In this document: positions 2,683 through 58,185 of the stretch, piece after piece
Numbering within the stretch: position 1 is the stretch's first letter
How the letters are laid out: each line of letters begins with the position of its first letter
Origin: Archangium primigenium
GTDB taxonomy: Bacteria > Myxococcota > Myxococcia > Myxococcales > Myxococcaceae
Length of the DNA stretch: 64,000 nt
Direction of reading: 5' to 3'
NCBI RefSeq assembly: GCF_016904885.1
Contig: NZ_JADWYI010000001.1
Location: 2,232,001 to 2,296,000 of the forward strand
Program-made: the position numbers and the translations under genes
The notes under the pieces: model-generated
What the model was told of the DNA's origin: nothing
Seen by the model: only the letters and a program-made list of their open reading frames with translations
The model's database searches: none

Positions 2683-3423
2683 TCATGCCGCTGGGGGCCG
2701 GCGGTGCTTCGCGTAGAGGGCGTCGCGCCACTGGAGCAGGGCCGGGTAGCGCGCCGCGAGCCGGGGCTGGGTCCAGGCGGCGCGTCCTCCAATCCCCACG
2801 GGCATGAAGGACGTGTCCACGGGGCTCACGCCCTGCAGCACCAGGGCCATGGCGATGTCCGCGTACGAGAACGCGCCGAGCAGGTAGGGCCGCTCGGGGG
2901 ACACCGCCGTGGCCAGCGCGTCCAGCGTCTGGGTGAGGAGCAGCTCGTGCCGTCCGGCGTCGTCGCGCATCCGGTACTTGAGGGTGAGGGCTTCCAGGCT
3001 CCGGCGGACCACGGGCCGCACGAGGGGCCGCAGGGGCGCGGGGACCTCGGGCGGCACGAGCGCGTCGAGGGCACCCGGGGTGTCCAGGGCGCCGAGCATG
3101 AACAGGGCGCGTCCGGCCGCGAGCGCCGCCTCGCTCCGGGCGTTCCAGGCGGTGAGGGCGTCGAGCTGCCCCTCGGGAAACAGCCGGGGCCCGTGTCCGA
3201 GCCCCTCCGCGTACCGAGCGATCTCGAACGAGTCCCGGTACCACCGGTCCGCTTCCAGGACGGGCACCGTCACCGGGCCGGTGGGCTGGCGCAGGCGCCG
3301 GCGCAGCCGCCACTCCCCGAGCAGGGGCCCGTGCTCGTGGAAGGTGTACGCGAGCCGGTGGTGGTCGAGCGCCCAGCGGGCCTTCTCGGTCCAGGGCGAG
3401 AACGGGATGCCGAACAGCTTCAT
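2683..3423 (-). CDS. Glutathione S-transferase family protein
   Basis: 246 aa. The start is the ATG before KLFGIPFSPW, with GGAG 8 nt upstream; an open frame continues upstream but is unrelated. The N-terminal 80 residues form a thioredoxin-like GST domain (KLFGIPFSPWTEKARWALDHH, then TVPVLEADRWYRDSFEIARY, where the D-S pair is the usual glutathione-contact position). The remainder is an all-helical C-terminal domain. The classical N-terminal catalytic Tyr/Ser is not clear; a Ser follows the first strand. Substrate is unknown. The gene is divergent from the membrane-protein gene at 3487, with 63 bp between starts. Confidence 0.8.
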   Translation of the reverse strand: MKLFGIPFSPWTEKARWALDHHRLAYTFHEHGPLLGEWRLRRRLRQPTGPVTVPVLEADRWYRDSFEIARYAEGLGHGPRLFPEGQLDALTAWNARSEAALAAGRALFMLGALDTPGALDALVPPEVPAPLRPLVRPVVRRSLEALTLKYRMRDDAGRHELLLTQTLDALATAVSPERPYLLGAFSYADIAMALVLQGVSPVDTSFMPVGIGGRAAWTQPRLAARYPALLQWRDALYAKHRRPPAA

Positions 3424-3486
3424 GGGGAGGTCTCCTGGGCGCCCGCGGGACGCCGCCGTGCTACGAGGAGCCGTGTCTACCCCATC

Positions 3487-4383
3487 ATGTCCATGCATTG
3501 GCTGACGCGCGTCCTTCCAGGGACGCCCCCGGGCCGGGCGGCGGCCTCGTTCACCCTGACCTCGGGCGGGGGGGTCCTCCTGGGCGGCCTCGTGGCCGCC
3601 GCGCACGGCGTCCCCCTGTCCCTGGGGGTGCGCAACGCCGGGGCGTGGCTCGTGGGGGCCCTGCTGGCGGCGCTCCTGGCGAGGCACGCGTCGGGGCGGG
3701 GGGCCTGGCTCCTGCTGCCCCTCGCCGTGTTCGGGGTGGGGGCCACGTTCCTCGACAGTGGCCTGTCGGGTGTGCACCGCTGGGTGGGCCTCGGCCCGGT
3801 GCGGCTGCACGCCGCCGCGCTCCTGCTGCCCGGGGCGCTCGTCGCCTGGACGGACCTGGCGGCCCGACGTCACCCGCTCGGGCTCGCGGTCCTCGGGCTC
3901 GCGGGCCTCCTGGCGCTCCAGCCCGATGCCGCGCAGGCCGTGGCGCTGGCGGGCGCCGTCGGGGCGGCCCTGCTCGTGCTCCGGAGGCGCGGGGCCCTGG
4001 GGGGCGGGGTGGCCATCGGCTCCGGGGTGGCGGCGCTGGTGTCGCTCGGGCGTGCGGACCCGCTCGCGCCGGTGCCCGAGGTCGAGGGCATCGTCGGCCT
4101 CGCCTGGGAGACCTCGCCTGGGCTGGCGGTGCTGGCGGTGCTCCTGCTGGCGGGCGCGGCGCTGTCGCCCCTGGCCGCCCGGGCGAGCCCCGTGGAGGGT
4201 GTCCGGGCGGCGGCGTGGGGCCTCGCCGTCTATTTCGCGCTCTGTGTGCTGGCGCCAGGGCTCGGGGCCTTTCCCGTGCCGTGGCTGGGCATGGGCGTCA
4301 GTCCCATCCTCGGCGCCTGGTGCGGCCTGGGGTTGCTGGTGGGGCGCGGGGCCCGCGCCCTCAGCGCTTCAGGCCCCGCTTGA
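3487..4383 (+). CDS. Polytopic membrane protein, unknown function
   Basis: 298 aa, with about nine hydrophobic helices separated by short loops. The start is one of two neighbouring ATGs (3487 and 3493). A loop around residues 92-105 reads GVHRWVGLGPVRLHAA, which resembles the RRWxxLG...QPSE loop of SEDS proteins (FtsW/RodA). The protein is shorter than SEDS proteins and lacks the QPSE part, so homology is only suggested. It overlaps the convergent trpA by 23 bp. No function is assigned. Confidence 0.6.
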   Translation: MSMHWLTRVLPGTPPGRAAASFTLTSGGGVLLGGLVAAAHGVPLSLGVRNAGAWLVGALLAALLARHASGRGAWLLLPLAVFGVGATFLDSGLSGVHRWVGLGPVRLHAAALLLPGALVAWTDLAARRHPLGLAVLGLAGLLALQPDAAQAVALAGAVGAALLVLRRRGALGGGVAIGSGVAALVSLGRADPLAPVPEVEGIVGLAWETSPGLAVLAVLLLAGAALSPLAARASPVEGVRAAAWGLAVYFALCVLAPGLGAFPVPWLGMGVSPILGAWCGLGLLVGRGARALSASGPA

Positions 4384-54646: not shown

Positions 54647-55210
54647 ATGTCGGTGAACATCCAGCTCGAGTGGACGCCCAACCCCAGCACCCTGAAGTAC
54701 GTGGTGGATCGGCGGCTCGTGTCGTCCGGGGCGGTGAGCATCACGAACCTCGAGGCGGCGCAGGAGAAGTCGCCCCTGGCGCTCAAGCTCATGGGCATCA
54801 TGGGCGTGGTGGCGGTGATGGTGGGCAGCAACTTCGTCACCGTCACCAAGGGAGACGCGGGCGAGTGGGACGAGCTGAATGACGCGGTGATGGCGACGCT
54901 CGACGAGCACCTGGGGGCCAACCTGCCCGCGGTGAACGAGGAGGCGCTCGCGGCGGCGCGCACCCAGTCGGCGGCGGCGGGTGGCTCGGTGGAGTCGCGC
55001 ATCCAGGAGATTTTGGACGCGGAGATCCGCCCGGCGGTGGCCCAGGACGGTGGCGACATCACCCTGGACCGCTTCGAGGAGGGCATCGTCTACCTGCACA
55101 TGAAGGGCTCCTGCGCGGGCTGCCCCTCGTCCACGGCGACCTTGAAGATGGGCATCGAGACGCGGCTGCGCGAGCTCGTGCCCGAGGTCTCCGAGGTGGT
55201 GTCCGTCTGA
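54647..55210 (+). CDS. Nfu-type iron-sulfur cluster scaffold/carrier protein
   Basis: 187 aa. The N-terminal Nfu_N domain (LEWTPNPSTLKYV, SPLALKLMGIMGVVAVMVGSNFVTVTK) and the C-terminal NifU-like domain with the CxxC (GSCAGCPSS) that holds a 4Fe-4S cluster are joined by an Ala-rich linker. The architecture matches mitochondrial NFU1 and bacterial homologues. GGAG lies 10 nt before the ATG. The stop TGA overlaps a CTG start of the next gene (CTGA). Confidence 0.93.
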   Translation: MSVNIQLEWTPNPSTLKYVVDRRLVSSGAVSITNLEAAQEKSPLALKLMGIMGVVAVMVGSNFVTVTKGDAGEWDELNDAVMATLDEHLGANLPAVNEEALAAARTQSAAAGGSVESRIQEILDAEIRPAVAQDGGDITLDRFEEGIVYLHMKGSCAGCPSSTATLKMGIETRLRELVPEVSEVVSV

Positions 55211-56103
55211 GGCGGCAAGTCAAAGGCGCCCAGGTCAAGCGCGAGCTGCTGCCGGACCAGTCCCGGGAGCTCCTGCGCGAGCTGCACCTGCTCACGCGCG
55301 AGGGCAACCTCAACGCGGACACGCTGCGCAAGCTCAAGCAGGTCAACCACCTGGTGGGGCTGCTGCGGCCCGCCCTGGAGGACGTCCAGGGTCGGCACGC
55401 CTCGCCGGTGGTGGTGGACGCGGGCAGCGGCAACGCCTACCTGGGCTTCATCCTCTACGAGCTGTTCTTCAAGGACGCCGAGGGCGGCGGGGTGCTCAAC
55501 GTCGAGGGTCGGCCGGAGCTGACCCAGCGGGCGAAGGAGCGCGCGGGGCGGCTGGGCTTCGGGCGGATGGAGTTCCAGACGGCGAACCTGGAAGGCGCCG
55601 TGTGGCCCGAGCGCATCCACGTGCTCACCGCGCTGCACGCCTGTGACACCGCGACGGACGACGCGCTGGCGGTGGCCATCCAGAAGGGCGCGGACCACGT
55701 GGCCGTGGTGCCGTGCTGTCAGGCGGAGGTGGCCACGCTGCTCAAGGAGAGCCGCGCCGGGGTGGATGACACGTTGTCCCTGCTCTACCAGCACCCCTGG
55801 CACCGCCGGGAGTTCGGCAGCCACCTGACCAACGTGCTGCGCGCGCTGACGCTGGAGGCCTTCGGCTACCAGGTGACGGTGACGGAGCTGACGGGCTGGG
55901 AGCACTCGCTCAAGAACGAGCTCATCCTCGGCCGGCGCGTGCACCGCGACAACCGGCGTGCGCGCGTGAAGCTGGAGGCGCTGCTGGCCACCTACGGGGT
56001 GCGGCCCAAGCTGGCGCGGCTGCTCGGCGTGGAGCCCGCGGGCCGCGCCGCTCCGGCCCCGGACACGGAAGCCCCGGACGTCACCCGAACGCCTCCCGCT
56101 TGA
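55207..56103 (+). CDS. SAM-dependent methyltransferase, probable CTG start
   Basis: 298 aa if translation begins at the CTG at 55207. In this frame the first usual start is a GTG at 55354, but the preceding 49 codons read like real protein (RQVKGAQVKRELLPDQSREL, then LNADTLRKLKQVNHLVGLL) and are continuous with the rest. The CTG shares bases with the Nfu stop (CTGA), the same layout as ATGA junctions here. The SAM motif is VVVDAGSGNAYLGFILYELF, with VLTALHACDTATDDAL and VAVVPCCQAEV later. Probable methyltransferase of unknown substrate. It overlaps the convergent gene by 23 bp. Confidence 0.75.
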   Translation: MRRQVKGAQVKRELLPDQSRELLRELHLLTREGNLNADTLRKLKQVNHLVGLLRPALEDVQGRHASPVVVDAGSGNAYLGFILYELFFKDAEGGGVLNVEGRPELTQRAKERAGRLGFGRMEFQTANLEGAVWPERIHVLTALHACDTATDDALAVAIQKGADHVAVVPCCQAEVATLLKESRAGVDDTLSLLYQHPWHRREFGSHLTNVLRALTLEAFGYQVTVTELTGWEHSLKNELILGRRVHRDNRRARVKLEALLATYGVRPKLARLLGVEPAGRAAPAPDTEAPDVTRTPPA

Positions 56104-56965
56104 TGCGCTTGTCGTCCACGCCGAGCGTGTGGAGGTGGCCGAGCACCGTCTCCATGAAGCGCGGCGTGGCGGGGGTGCGCGTCTCCAGCGCCTTCTTCCG
56201 GTCCCACGCGGCGATGGCCGGGCCACACACGTAGACGAGGCAGGTGGCGCGGTCCGGGACGAGCTCCTCGAGCAGGGCCTCGCTCACCCGGCCCTTGCGC
56301 ACGCTGGGGCCGTAGCGCGCCTCGTCCGTCTCGCGGGTGAGGGTGTGCAGGATGCGCAGCCGCTCGGGATGGGCGCGCTCGAGCGCCTCCAGCTCCTCGC
56401 GAAAGAGCGTGTCCTCCCACGTCTTGTTGCTGCACAAGAGCGTGTGGCGCGGGGTGAGGCCCCGGTGCAGCGCGTCCTTGATGAGGCCGAAGTTGGGCAC
56501 GGCGCCCGAGCCGGCGATGAGGTGGACGATGTGGTCCGTGCGCTCCTGCACGTCGTCCGGCAGCACGTAGTGCCCCATGAAGCCGAGCACCTTGAGGCGC
56601 GTGCCGGCGAGCGGGGCATTCACCAGGTAGGGCGAGAGCAGGGGCGGGTACTGGGTGAGGCCGGGCAGGTACTCCTCGTCCTTCACGGTGATGCAGACGT
56701 GGGGCTCGTGGGGCGCGGAGGCGAGCGAGTAGGAGCGCGCCAGCTCCTTGCGGCCCTTGTGCTCCTGGAGCCAGGCGGCCGTGCGGCCCAGGGCGCGGAA
56801 CTGGTGGGGGTCCACGTTGATGAACTGGCCGGCGCGGTAGGAGGGCCGCTCGGGGCCGAAGTCCAGCGCCAGGGTGACGGTGTCGGCCGTCTCCCGCCGC
56901 ACGTGGGCCACGGTGACCTCGTATTCGAGCGGACGGCCGCGGGGGGTGCTCACCACTGCGCTCAC
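56081..56965 (-). CDS. Ferredoxin-NADP reductase-like flavoprotein
   Basis: 294 aa from the GTG at 56965, which has AGGAGG 5 nt upstream; the longer frame (TTG at 57040) is unlikely. FAD domain: YRAGQFINVDP and the RSYSLAS motif; NAD(P) domain: IAGSGAVPNFGLI and CLVYVCGPA. The sequence belongs to the ferredoxin reductase/oxygenase-reductase group without an attached ferredoxin domain. Electron acceptor unknown. Its start is 75 bp from the divergent THUMP gene. Confidence 0.85.
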   Translation of the reverse strand: MSAVVSTPRGRPLEYEVTVAHVRRETADTVTLALDFGPERPSYRAGQFINVDPHQFRALGRTAAWLQEHKGRKELARSYSLASAPHEPHVCITVKDEEYLPGLTQYPPLLSPYLVNAPLAGTRLKVLGFMGHYVLPDDVQERTDHIVHLIAGSGAVPNFGLIKDALHRGLTPRHTLLCSNKTWEDTLFREELEALERAHPERLRILHTLTRETDEARYGPSVRKGRVSEALLEELVPDRATCLVYVCGPAIAAWDRKKALETRTPATPRFMETVLGHLHTLGVDDKRIKREAFG

Positions 56966-57039
56966 GGACTCCTCCTGCCAGCCCGGCGAGCGCGCTTCCG
57001 GAAGAGGAAGGCATTGCGGCCGGGCGCCGGGCGCGGACA

Positions 57040-58185
57040 ATGCCCGTTCAGATGGCGAACGTCCAACAGAGGGAGCACGTCTTCGTGGCCACGCTGCCCG
57101 GCCTGGAGCCGGCGCTGGTGATGGAGGCGGAGGCGCGGGGTTTGTCCCCCCAACGGGTGGAGGGCGGCGTGGAGCTGGTGGGGCCCTCCGGCCTGCACCA
57201 GGAGGCCAACCTCCACCTGCGCACGGCGAGCCGGGTGTGGCTGCGCGTGGGGCGCTTCACCGCGCCGGACGCGGGGGCCCTGACCAAGGGCCTGGCGGCG
57301 CTGCCGCTCGGCGCGGTGGGGGAGGGACGCGGGGCCCCGCGGCTGGCCGTGTCGCTGCACGGCGCTCGCCTGCCCGGCCCGGACGCGGTGCTGGCGGCGG
57401 CGGCGCGGGCCTGGGGCGTGCCCGCGGTGGAGCGCGCGGGCGCCCTGGACGAGGAGGCCGCGGGCGAGGGCCTCACGCTGCTCGTGCGCGTGGAGGGCAC
57501 CCAGTGCACGGTGAGCGCGGAGACCAGCGGCGAGGCCCTGCACCGGCGGGGCTATCGGCAGGAGGTGAGCCGGGCGCCGCTGCGCGAGACGCTCGCCGCG
57601 GGCATCCTCCTGTTGGCCGGCTACGACGGCGCGGCCCCGCTGGTGGACCCCATGTGCGGCTCGGGCACCTTCCTCATCGAGGGGGCGTGGATGGCTCAGC
57701 GGCGCGCGCCGGGGCTCGCGCGGGCCTTCGCCTTCGAGCGCTTCCCCGGTTTCGTCGCGGCCGAGTGGGAGGCCCGGCGCGCCCGGGCCCAGGCGGAGGT
57801 CCTGTCCGCGCCGCCGGAGGGGCCCCGCGGGTACGACCTCAACGCGGGCTCGCTGGGCACGGCGCGGCGCAACGCGCGGCGGGCGGGGGTGACGCTCACC
57901 CTGGAGCGCCAGGACGCGCGGACGCTCCAGGCGCCCCCGGGCGCGCCGGGCTGGGTGGTGGCCAATCCGCCGTATGGCAAGCGGGTGGGGGAGGGGGAGG
58001 ACCTGCCGGGGCTCTACCGGGCCCTGGGCCGCACGCTGCGCGAGTCCTTCGCGGGCTGGCACGCGGCGCTGCTCGTGCCGGACGAGCCCGCGCTCGTGCG
58101 GGCGTTGGAGCTGCCGGGAGCGCGGAGCCTGCCCCTGCGCAATGGCGGCCTGCGCTGCCGCCTGCTCTTGCGCGCGCCGCCGTGA
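57040..58185 (+). CDS. THUMP/RlmL-like RNA methyltransferase
   Basis: 381 aa (an ATG at 57052 is the alternative start). An N-terminal ferredoxin-like/THUMP part (VFVATLPGLEPALVMEAEARGL, LRTASRVWLRVGRF) binds RNA. The methyltransferase has the RGYRQEVSRAPLRETLAAGIL helix, PMCGSGTFLIEGAW and the catalytic NPPYGKR motif for N2-guanine modification. It is about half the length of E. coli RlmL, matching its N-terminal RlmL half, and so is more like YpsC/YcbY-N proteins acting on 23S rRNA. Confidence 0.88.
   Translation: MPVQMANVQQREHVFVATLPGLEPALVMEAEARGLSPQRVEGGVELVGPSGLHQEANLHLRTASRVWLRVGRFTAPDAGALTKGLAALPLGAVGEGRGAPRLAVSLHGARLPGPDAVLAAAARAWGVPAVERAGALDEEAAGEGLTLLVRVEGTQCTVSAETSGEALHRRGYRQEVSRAPLRETLAAGILLLAGYDGAAPLVDPMCGSGTFLIEGAWMAQRRAPGLARAFAFERFPGFVAAEWEARRARAQAEVLSAPPEGPRGYDLNAGSLGTARRNARRAGVTLTLERQDARTLQAPPGAPGWVVANPPYGKRVGEGEDLPGLYRALGRTLRESFAGWHAALLVPDEPALVRALELPGARSLPLRNGGLRCRLLLRAPP

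Follow-up and report, generated by a model that had tools for sequence, protein, structure and literature searches.

In bacteria, the NTGA junction is the commonest spacing of translationally coupled genes, a −4 nt overlap at which the downstream start begins one base before the upstream stop and ribosomes pass from one gene to the next by termination-reinitiation (PMC10666635, PMC12548453). PMC10666635 defines the class as ATGA or GTGA and its accessible text contains no occurrence of CTGA. CUG is generally regarded as a start codon that bacteria hardly use. It is an NTG codon, differs from AUG by a single first-base mismatch and is read by the initiator tRNA (PMC11497404, PMC5622118). Earlier measurements cited in PMC11497404 put its activity at 0.86 % of that of AUG in E. 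coli and its share of bacterial start codons at 0.024 %. Ancestral switches from AUG to CUG amount to 2 of 61,358 in PMC5622118, and a selection experiment in mycobacteria showed no enrichment of CUG at the leadered start position (PMC4633059). In the accessible portions of PMC3890552 and PMC13245402, CTG appears only as a search or processing setting, and PMC4648390 deals with eukaryotic reinitiation. No earlier report of a CTG start in myxobacteria or of a CTGA junction was found in the open-access literature searched.

The window considered here, i.e., the whole 64,000-nucleotide stretch of DNA that was analysed, belongs to a myxobacterial genome of 9.49 Mb with a GC content of about 70 %, and the relatives used for comparison are likewise myxobacteria. 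It contains a gene for an Nfu/NifU-type scaffold protein, with both the Nfu_N and the NifU domain, followed on the same strand by a methyltransferase gene (Table 1). The initial annotation had placed a CTG across the nfu stop codon and the first conventional start, a GTG, 49 codons further on; both descriptions are exact, the four bases at the junction reading CTGA and the GTG being the first ATG, GTG or TTG of a frame that is open from 54883 to 56103. Sequence comparison indicates that translation of the methyltransferase very probably starts at this CTG. The junction resembles the described −4 nt overlaps in its shared stop and start bases, its same-strand arrangement, the conservation of the gene pair and the position of the start one base before the stop. 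However, its first base is C in all 68 genomes of the core set defined below, and a codon that is otherwise very rare as a bacterial start is here kept across many genera and tied to the stop of the upstream gene. The locus is thus a known kind of event, the NTGA overlap, with a start codon not reported for it: an unusually well conserved new example, but no new mechanism.

Table 1. Features of the nfu/methyltransferase junction, in positions of the window.
Feature	Position	Strand	Observation
In-frame stop bounding the methyltransferase frame upstream	54880..54882	+	no ATG, GTG or TTG between this stop and 55354
nfu (Nfu_N and NifU domains), upstream partner	54647..55210	+	stop TGA 55208-55210; Pfam PF08712 E 7.4e-22, PF01106 E 6.8e-28
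GAGGTG, possible Shine-Dalgarno-like stretch inside nfu	55193..55198	+	8 nt before the CTG; doubles as Nfu Glu-Val codons
CTGA, with the proposed CTG start (55207-55209) lying across the nfu TGA (−4 nt overlap)	55207..55210	+	CTGA at the aligned codon in 68/107 loci
Full methyltransferase coding sequence, 298 aa, Methyltransf_32, with CTG read as fMet	55207..56103	+	PF13679 match at residues 41-177; structure model mean pLDDT 88.9
N-terminal codons (49) lost if the start is GTG 55354	55207..55353	+	dN/dS 0.175 and 19/71 invariant columns
GTG, first conventional in-frame start, judged an internal valine codon	55354..55356	+	inside model helix 37-63; truncation costs PF13679 positions 1-12

The junction was read in 107 loci with a readable N-terminus, one per genome. 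In 68 of them, all from the window's own family, CTGA stands at exactly the aligned codon and overlaps the nfu TGA; these form the core set, and the named records with the identical CTGA include Archangium, Corallococcus, Myxococcus, Pyxidicoccus, Hyalangium and Citreicoccus. The aligned codon is exactly ATG in seven further loci and GTG in three, CTGA lies 1-7 codons before it with no conventional start nearby in seven, the remaining overlaps are TTGA (one locus) and GTGA (three), and a conventional start is found elsewhere between −12 and +2 codons in 18. The N-terminal residues are present in all 107 loci, every one of which has a candidate start within 12 codons before to 2 codons after the aligned position, and none needs a start at the equivalent of GTG 55354. 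On a tree of 105 of these loci (two short ones were dropped), which carries long-branch warnings, 63 of the 66 CTGA rows form one supported clade, with L024, L085 and L090 outside it, so the 68 CTGA loci are not 68 independent events. The seven loci with a displaced CTGA (L018, L022, L026, L028, L094, L096 and L097) are deeper members of the family, which could mean more than one origin or shift of CTG starts at the nfu junction.

On comparative grounds, the 49 N-terminal codons are real protein. The initial annotation had read them as well formed and continuous with the methyltransferase, and searches with the CTG-started protein bear this out: matches were obtained in 47 of 59 relatives and in all 96 genomes of the same family, and almost every full match starts at query residue 1 or 2. 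Moreover, across the class a profile built from 36 homologues found matches in 128 of 145 genomes, almost all of them beginning at model position 1-3, and among the 71 columns that are invariant in these 36 proteins, 19 precede the GTG, including the block RKLKQVNH. Within the methyltransferase frame of the 68 CTGA genomes, dN/dS is 0.175 over codons 1-48 (0.255 over codons 1-12), 0.325 over codons 49-260 and 0.73 in the poorly conserved tail after codon 260. The same frame inside nfu (codons −45 to −1) gives 3.43, and the nfu frame continued past its stop gives 1.11. These values, obtained by the Nei-Gojobori method on 600 sampled pairs, are descriptive rather than a test; they place strong protein-level selection just after the CTG and none just before it. 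In addition, codon 2 encodes arginine in 68 of 68 CTGA loci by means of AGG or AGA, although the overlap forces this codon to begin with A, which is hard to explain unless the residue is translated. No conventional start accounts for this conserved and, by these comparisons, translated N-terminus. Homologues starting at the GTG equivalent, or a frameshift leading to a different start, had been named as the results that would speak against a CTG start; neither was found, and the reading of the CTG as the likely start is supported.

The domain content of the protein points the same way. Its match to PF13679 scores 134.4 bits against a gathering cut-off of 27 and covers profile positions 1-142 of 143, which identifies a Methyltransf_32 domain beginning at residue 41, nine residues before the GTG. 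The GTG itself (residue 50) falls inside a 27-residue helix predicted by the structure model, in which the ten-residue blocks of residues 1-50 have pLDDT values of 78 to 92. As in other SAM-dependent methyltransferases of this family, the domain is present at full length, and the model shows a Rossmann-type methyltransferase fold. The structural matches reach only the broad methyltransferase fold, with many tied entries that include the iron-sulphur RNA methyltransferase RumA, and were not taken to assign the protein to a family; a sequence search for a solved close relative found none. Three cysteines at protein residues 146, 170 and 171, in HACD and PCC motifs, are invariant in the 36 homologues, and the gene follows one for an iron-sulphur carrier; a metal or Fe-S link for these cysteines is possible. 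At its other end, the methyltransferase gene overlaps by 23 bases (56081-56103) the 3' end of a convergent minus-strand ORF (56081-57040) whose protein, on reading, resembles an oxidoreductase.

The most likely mechanism is termination-reinitiation at the CUG of the −4 nt overlap. Ribosomes terminating Nfu synthesis at the TGA would re-engage the CUG one base back and reinitiate there, with initiator fMet-tRNA reading the CTG to yield the 298-residue methyltransferase. The GAGGTG upstream would perhaps help reinitiation; this stretch reads GAGGTG in 39, GAAGTG in 26 and GAGGTC in 3 of the 68 CTGA genomes, and since it is also Nfu coding sequence, a Shine-Dalgarno role is possible but unproven. 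Because CUG is poor for independent initiation, the methyltransferase would probably be made in low amounts relative to Nfu and depend on Nfu translation. Reinitiation, low yield and coupling are all extrapolated from what has been published on −4 nt overlaps and on CUG starts, and given the weakness of CUG in those data, very little methyltransferase might be made. The RNA around the junction folds in an ordinary way, no better than shuffled sequences (z 0.30). A conserved hairpin over the CTGA, suggested by CCGTC-TGA-GGCGG pairing in the window, was rejected on the same z value and because CAT or GGT before the CTG in relatives breaks pairs. Between 54400 and 56200, no Rfam match and no sigma-70-like promoter were found, and the single terminator-like site lies on the minus strand (shuffle mean 0.6).

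Whether the CUG is itself under selection is a separate matter. One could imagine that it has been chosen as a codon too weak for independent initiation yet usable by ribosomes that have just terminated, in which case the methyltransferase would be made only after Nfu translation and at a fixed low ratio, and selection would preserve the C and exclude GTG from the valine codons that follow, sparing the CUG competition from a stronger start. We consider this rather unlikely. It is quite possible, if somewhat short of an even chance, that the CTG serves as the start but is simply tolerated, the wobble base of the last nfu codon having drifted neutrally while the codon use of nfu or the context of termination favours C; this explanation opposes selection for CUG and not the start site. 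The C of the CTG occupies the wobble position of the final nfu codon, which is GTC in 63 and ATC in 5 of the 68 CTGA genomes; where it is GTC, a change to GTG or GTA would leave the Nfu protein unaltered while creating GTGA or ATGA. Drift sits uneasily with the fact that GTG is the commoner valine codon over conserved sites (1208 vs 446 for GTC) and a GTG start would be free for Nfu, yet the base is C in 68 of 68; ATGA and GTGA junctions, moreover, outnumber CTGA elsewhere in the genome sample. However, nfu also ends in GTC TGA in 14 of the 28 non-core loci that have nfu, where the genes are non-overlapping or shifted, which favours drift or nfu context. Furthermore, the tree shows no change of the C, but the same holds for 5 of the 94 fourfold-degenerate sites of the two genes, and the invariant C alone is therefore weak evidence for selection. 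The neighbouring valine codons raise a similar difficulty. In the core set, GTC encodes valine 4 in 67 of 67 loci and valine 9 in 64 of 68, whereas outside it GTG is common at both positions (12 and 14 of 39 loci, respectively). It looks as if a competing start were being avoided, but the tree has no change at valine 4 and two at valine 9, so little independent evidence is gained. With a CUG retained at the same junction in 68 species of a single family, the locus offers a natural test of whether reinitiating ribosomes tolerate starts that ordinary initiation rejects.

As to the start itself, a programmed −1 frameshift near the nfu stop could fuse Nfu to the methyltransferase, either in place of a new start or alongside one. 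The methyltransferase reading frame is −1 with respect to nfu and runs on from the end of that gene, and prfB shows that recoding at a stop does occur in this genome. This explanation is nevertheless very improbable, since the conserved nfu end, GTG TCC GTC TGA, lacks an X XXY YYZ slippery heptamer and the RNA structure at the junction is not unusual. In addition, relatives with a gap or a changed nfu spacing (e.g., L019, L020 and L027), as well as those in which nfu was not found adjacent (e.g., L029 and L099), have the same N-terminus after an ATG or GTG of their own. A check for a frameshift leading to some other start found none: in 20 of the 68 CTGA genomes an in-frame stop lies at most 20 codons upstream of the CTG, and in one of them only 5 codons upstream, the frame inside nfu shows no selection at the protein level and the non-overlapping homologues are free-standing.

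Still harder to uphold is translation from GTG 55354, with the 49 upstream codons untranslated. As the first ATG, GTG or TTG of its frame in the window, this codon would be the choice of a default gene finder, and the protein started there still scores 119 bits to PF13679. But it loses 15 bits and profile positions 1-12, the codons that would be discarded are more conserved than codons 49-260 and hold 19 of the 71 invariant columns, and ten relatives have an ATG or GTG at the position of the CTG. Moreover, the first conventional codon from the CTG onward varies by genome, falling at codon 9, 13, 14, 20, 21, 22, 39, 42, 45, 46 or 49 or being absent: among the 68 CTGA genomes it is a GTG or ATG at codon 49 in 21, a TTG at codon 14 in 14, a TTG at codon 22 in 11, a GTG at codon 45 in 11 and a GTG at codon 9 in 4, six other codons occur once each, and one genome has no conventional start within 50 codons. 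It is a sound prediction that a gene finder starting at GTG 55354 would lose the N-terminus of the methyltransferase, and more generally, programs restricted to ATG, GTG and TTG are expected to place the start at scattered downstream codons and thereby cut off the best conserved region. Finally, a start at a conventional or other near-cognate codon further upstream, inside nfu, is just as improbable as one at GTG 55354, for although 42 of the 68 CTGA genomes have a conventional in-frame codon there (mostly GTG at codon −32), the other 26, the window included, have none between the upstream in-frame stop and the CTG, the stop is close in the 20 genomes already mentioned, and the dN/dS of 3.43 shows that the frame inside nfu is not selected as protein.

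How unusual the CTG start would be within its own genome was gauged by a scan for lost N-termini, which applied a coding signal based on codon usage to 1.264 Mb and 1,024 gene models. The nfu/methyltransferase junction gave the largest coding signal upstream of a first conventional start (48.3 bits over 45 codons). Together with the alignment of the CTGA in 68 of 107 loci and the purifying selection that follows it, this top rank makes the junction more than a chance occurrence. Same-strand overlaps of the stop/start type comprise 86 ATGA, 47 GTGA, 37 CTGA and 6 TTGA in the scan, in agreement with the initial annotation, which noted many junctions with an ATG or GTG start across the stop. A conventional start lies within −30 to +12 codons at 32 of the 37 CTGA junctions; among the other five, lost coding signal is seen only between nfu and the methyltransferase, which makes this case close to a one-off in the genome and not a general habit.

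The clearest of the other lost N-termini is that of prfB, encoding release factor 2 (L230:12010-13068, minus strand; genome C1:7052010-7053068), with 30.8 bits and a TIGR00020 match of 472 bits. It serves as a positive control for the scan: its sequence contains CTTTGA, the slip site of the programmed +1 frameshift known for prfB. A comparative screen for conserved coding signal before every conventional start, which also recovered the recoding in prfB, could find other hidden starts. The second-largest signal belongs to a glutathione-S-transferase-like gene of the window (2683-4104, minus strand; PF13417 and PF13409), whose frame is open far upstream, rich in Arg, His and Gln and without overlap with an upstream stop; it is probably a frame artefact. 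Two identical ORFs (C1:2335633-2336244, plus strand, and C1:7128614-7129225, minus strand), whose coding signal does not open with a conventional start, look like transposase copies. The remaining signals are weak, under 25 bits.
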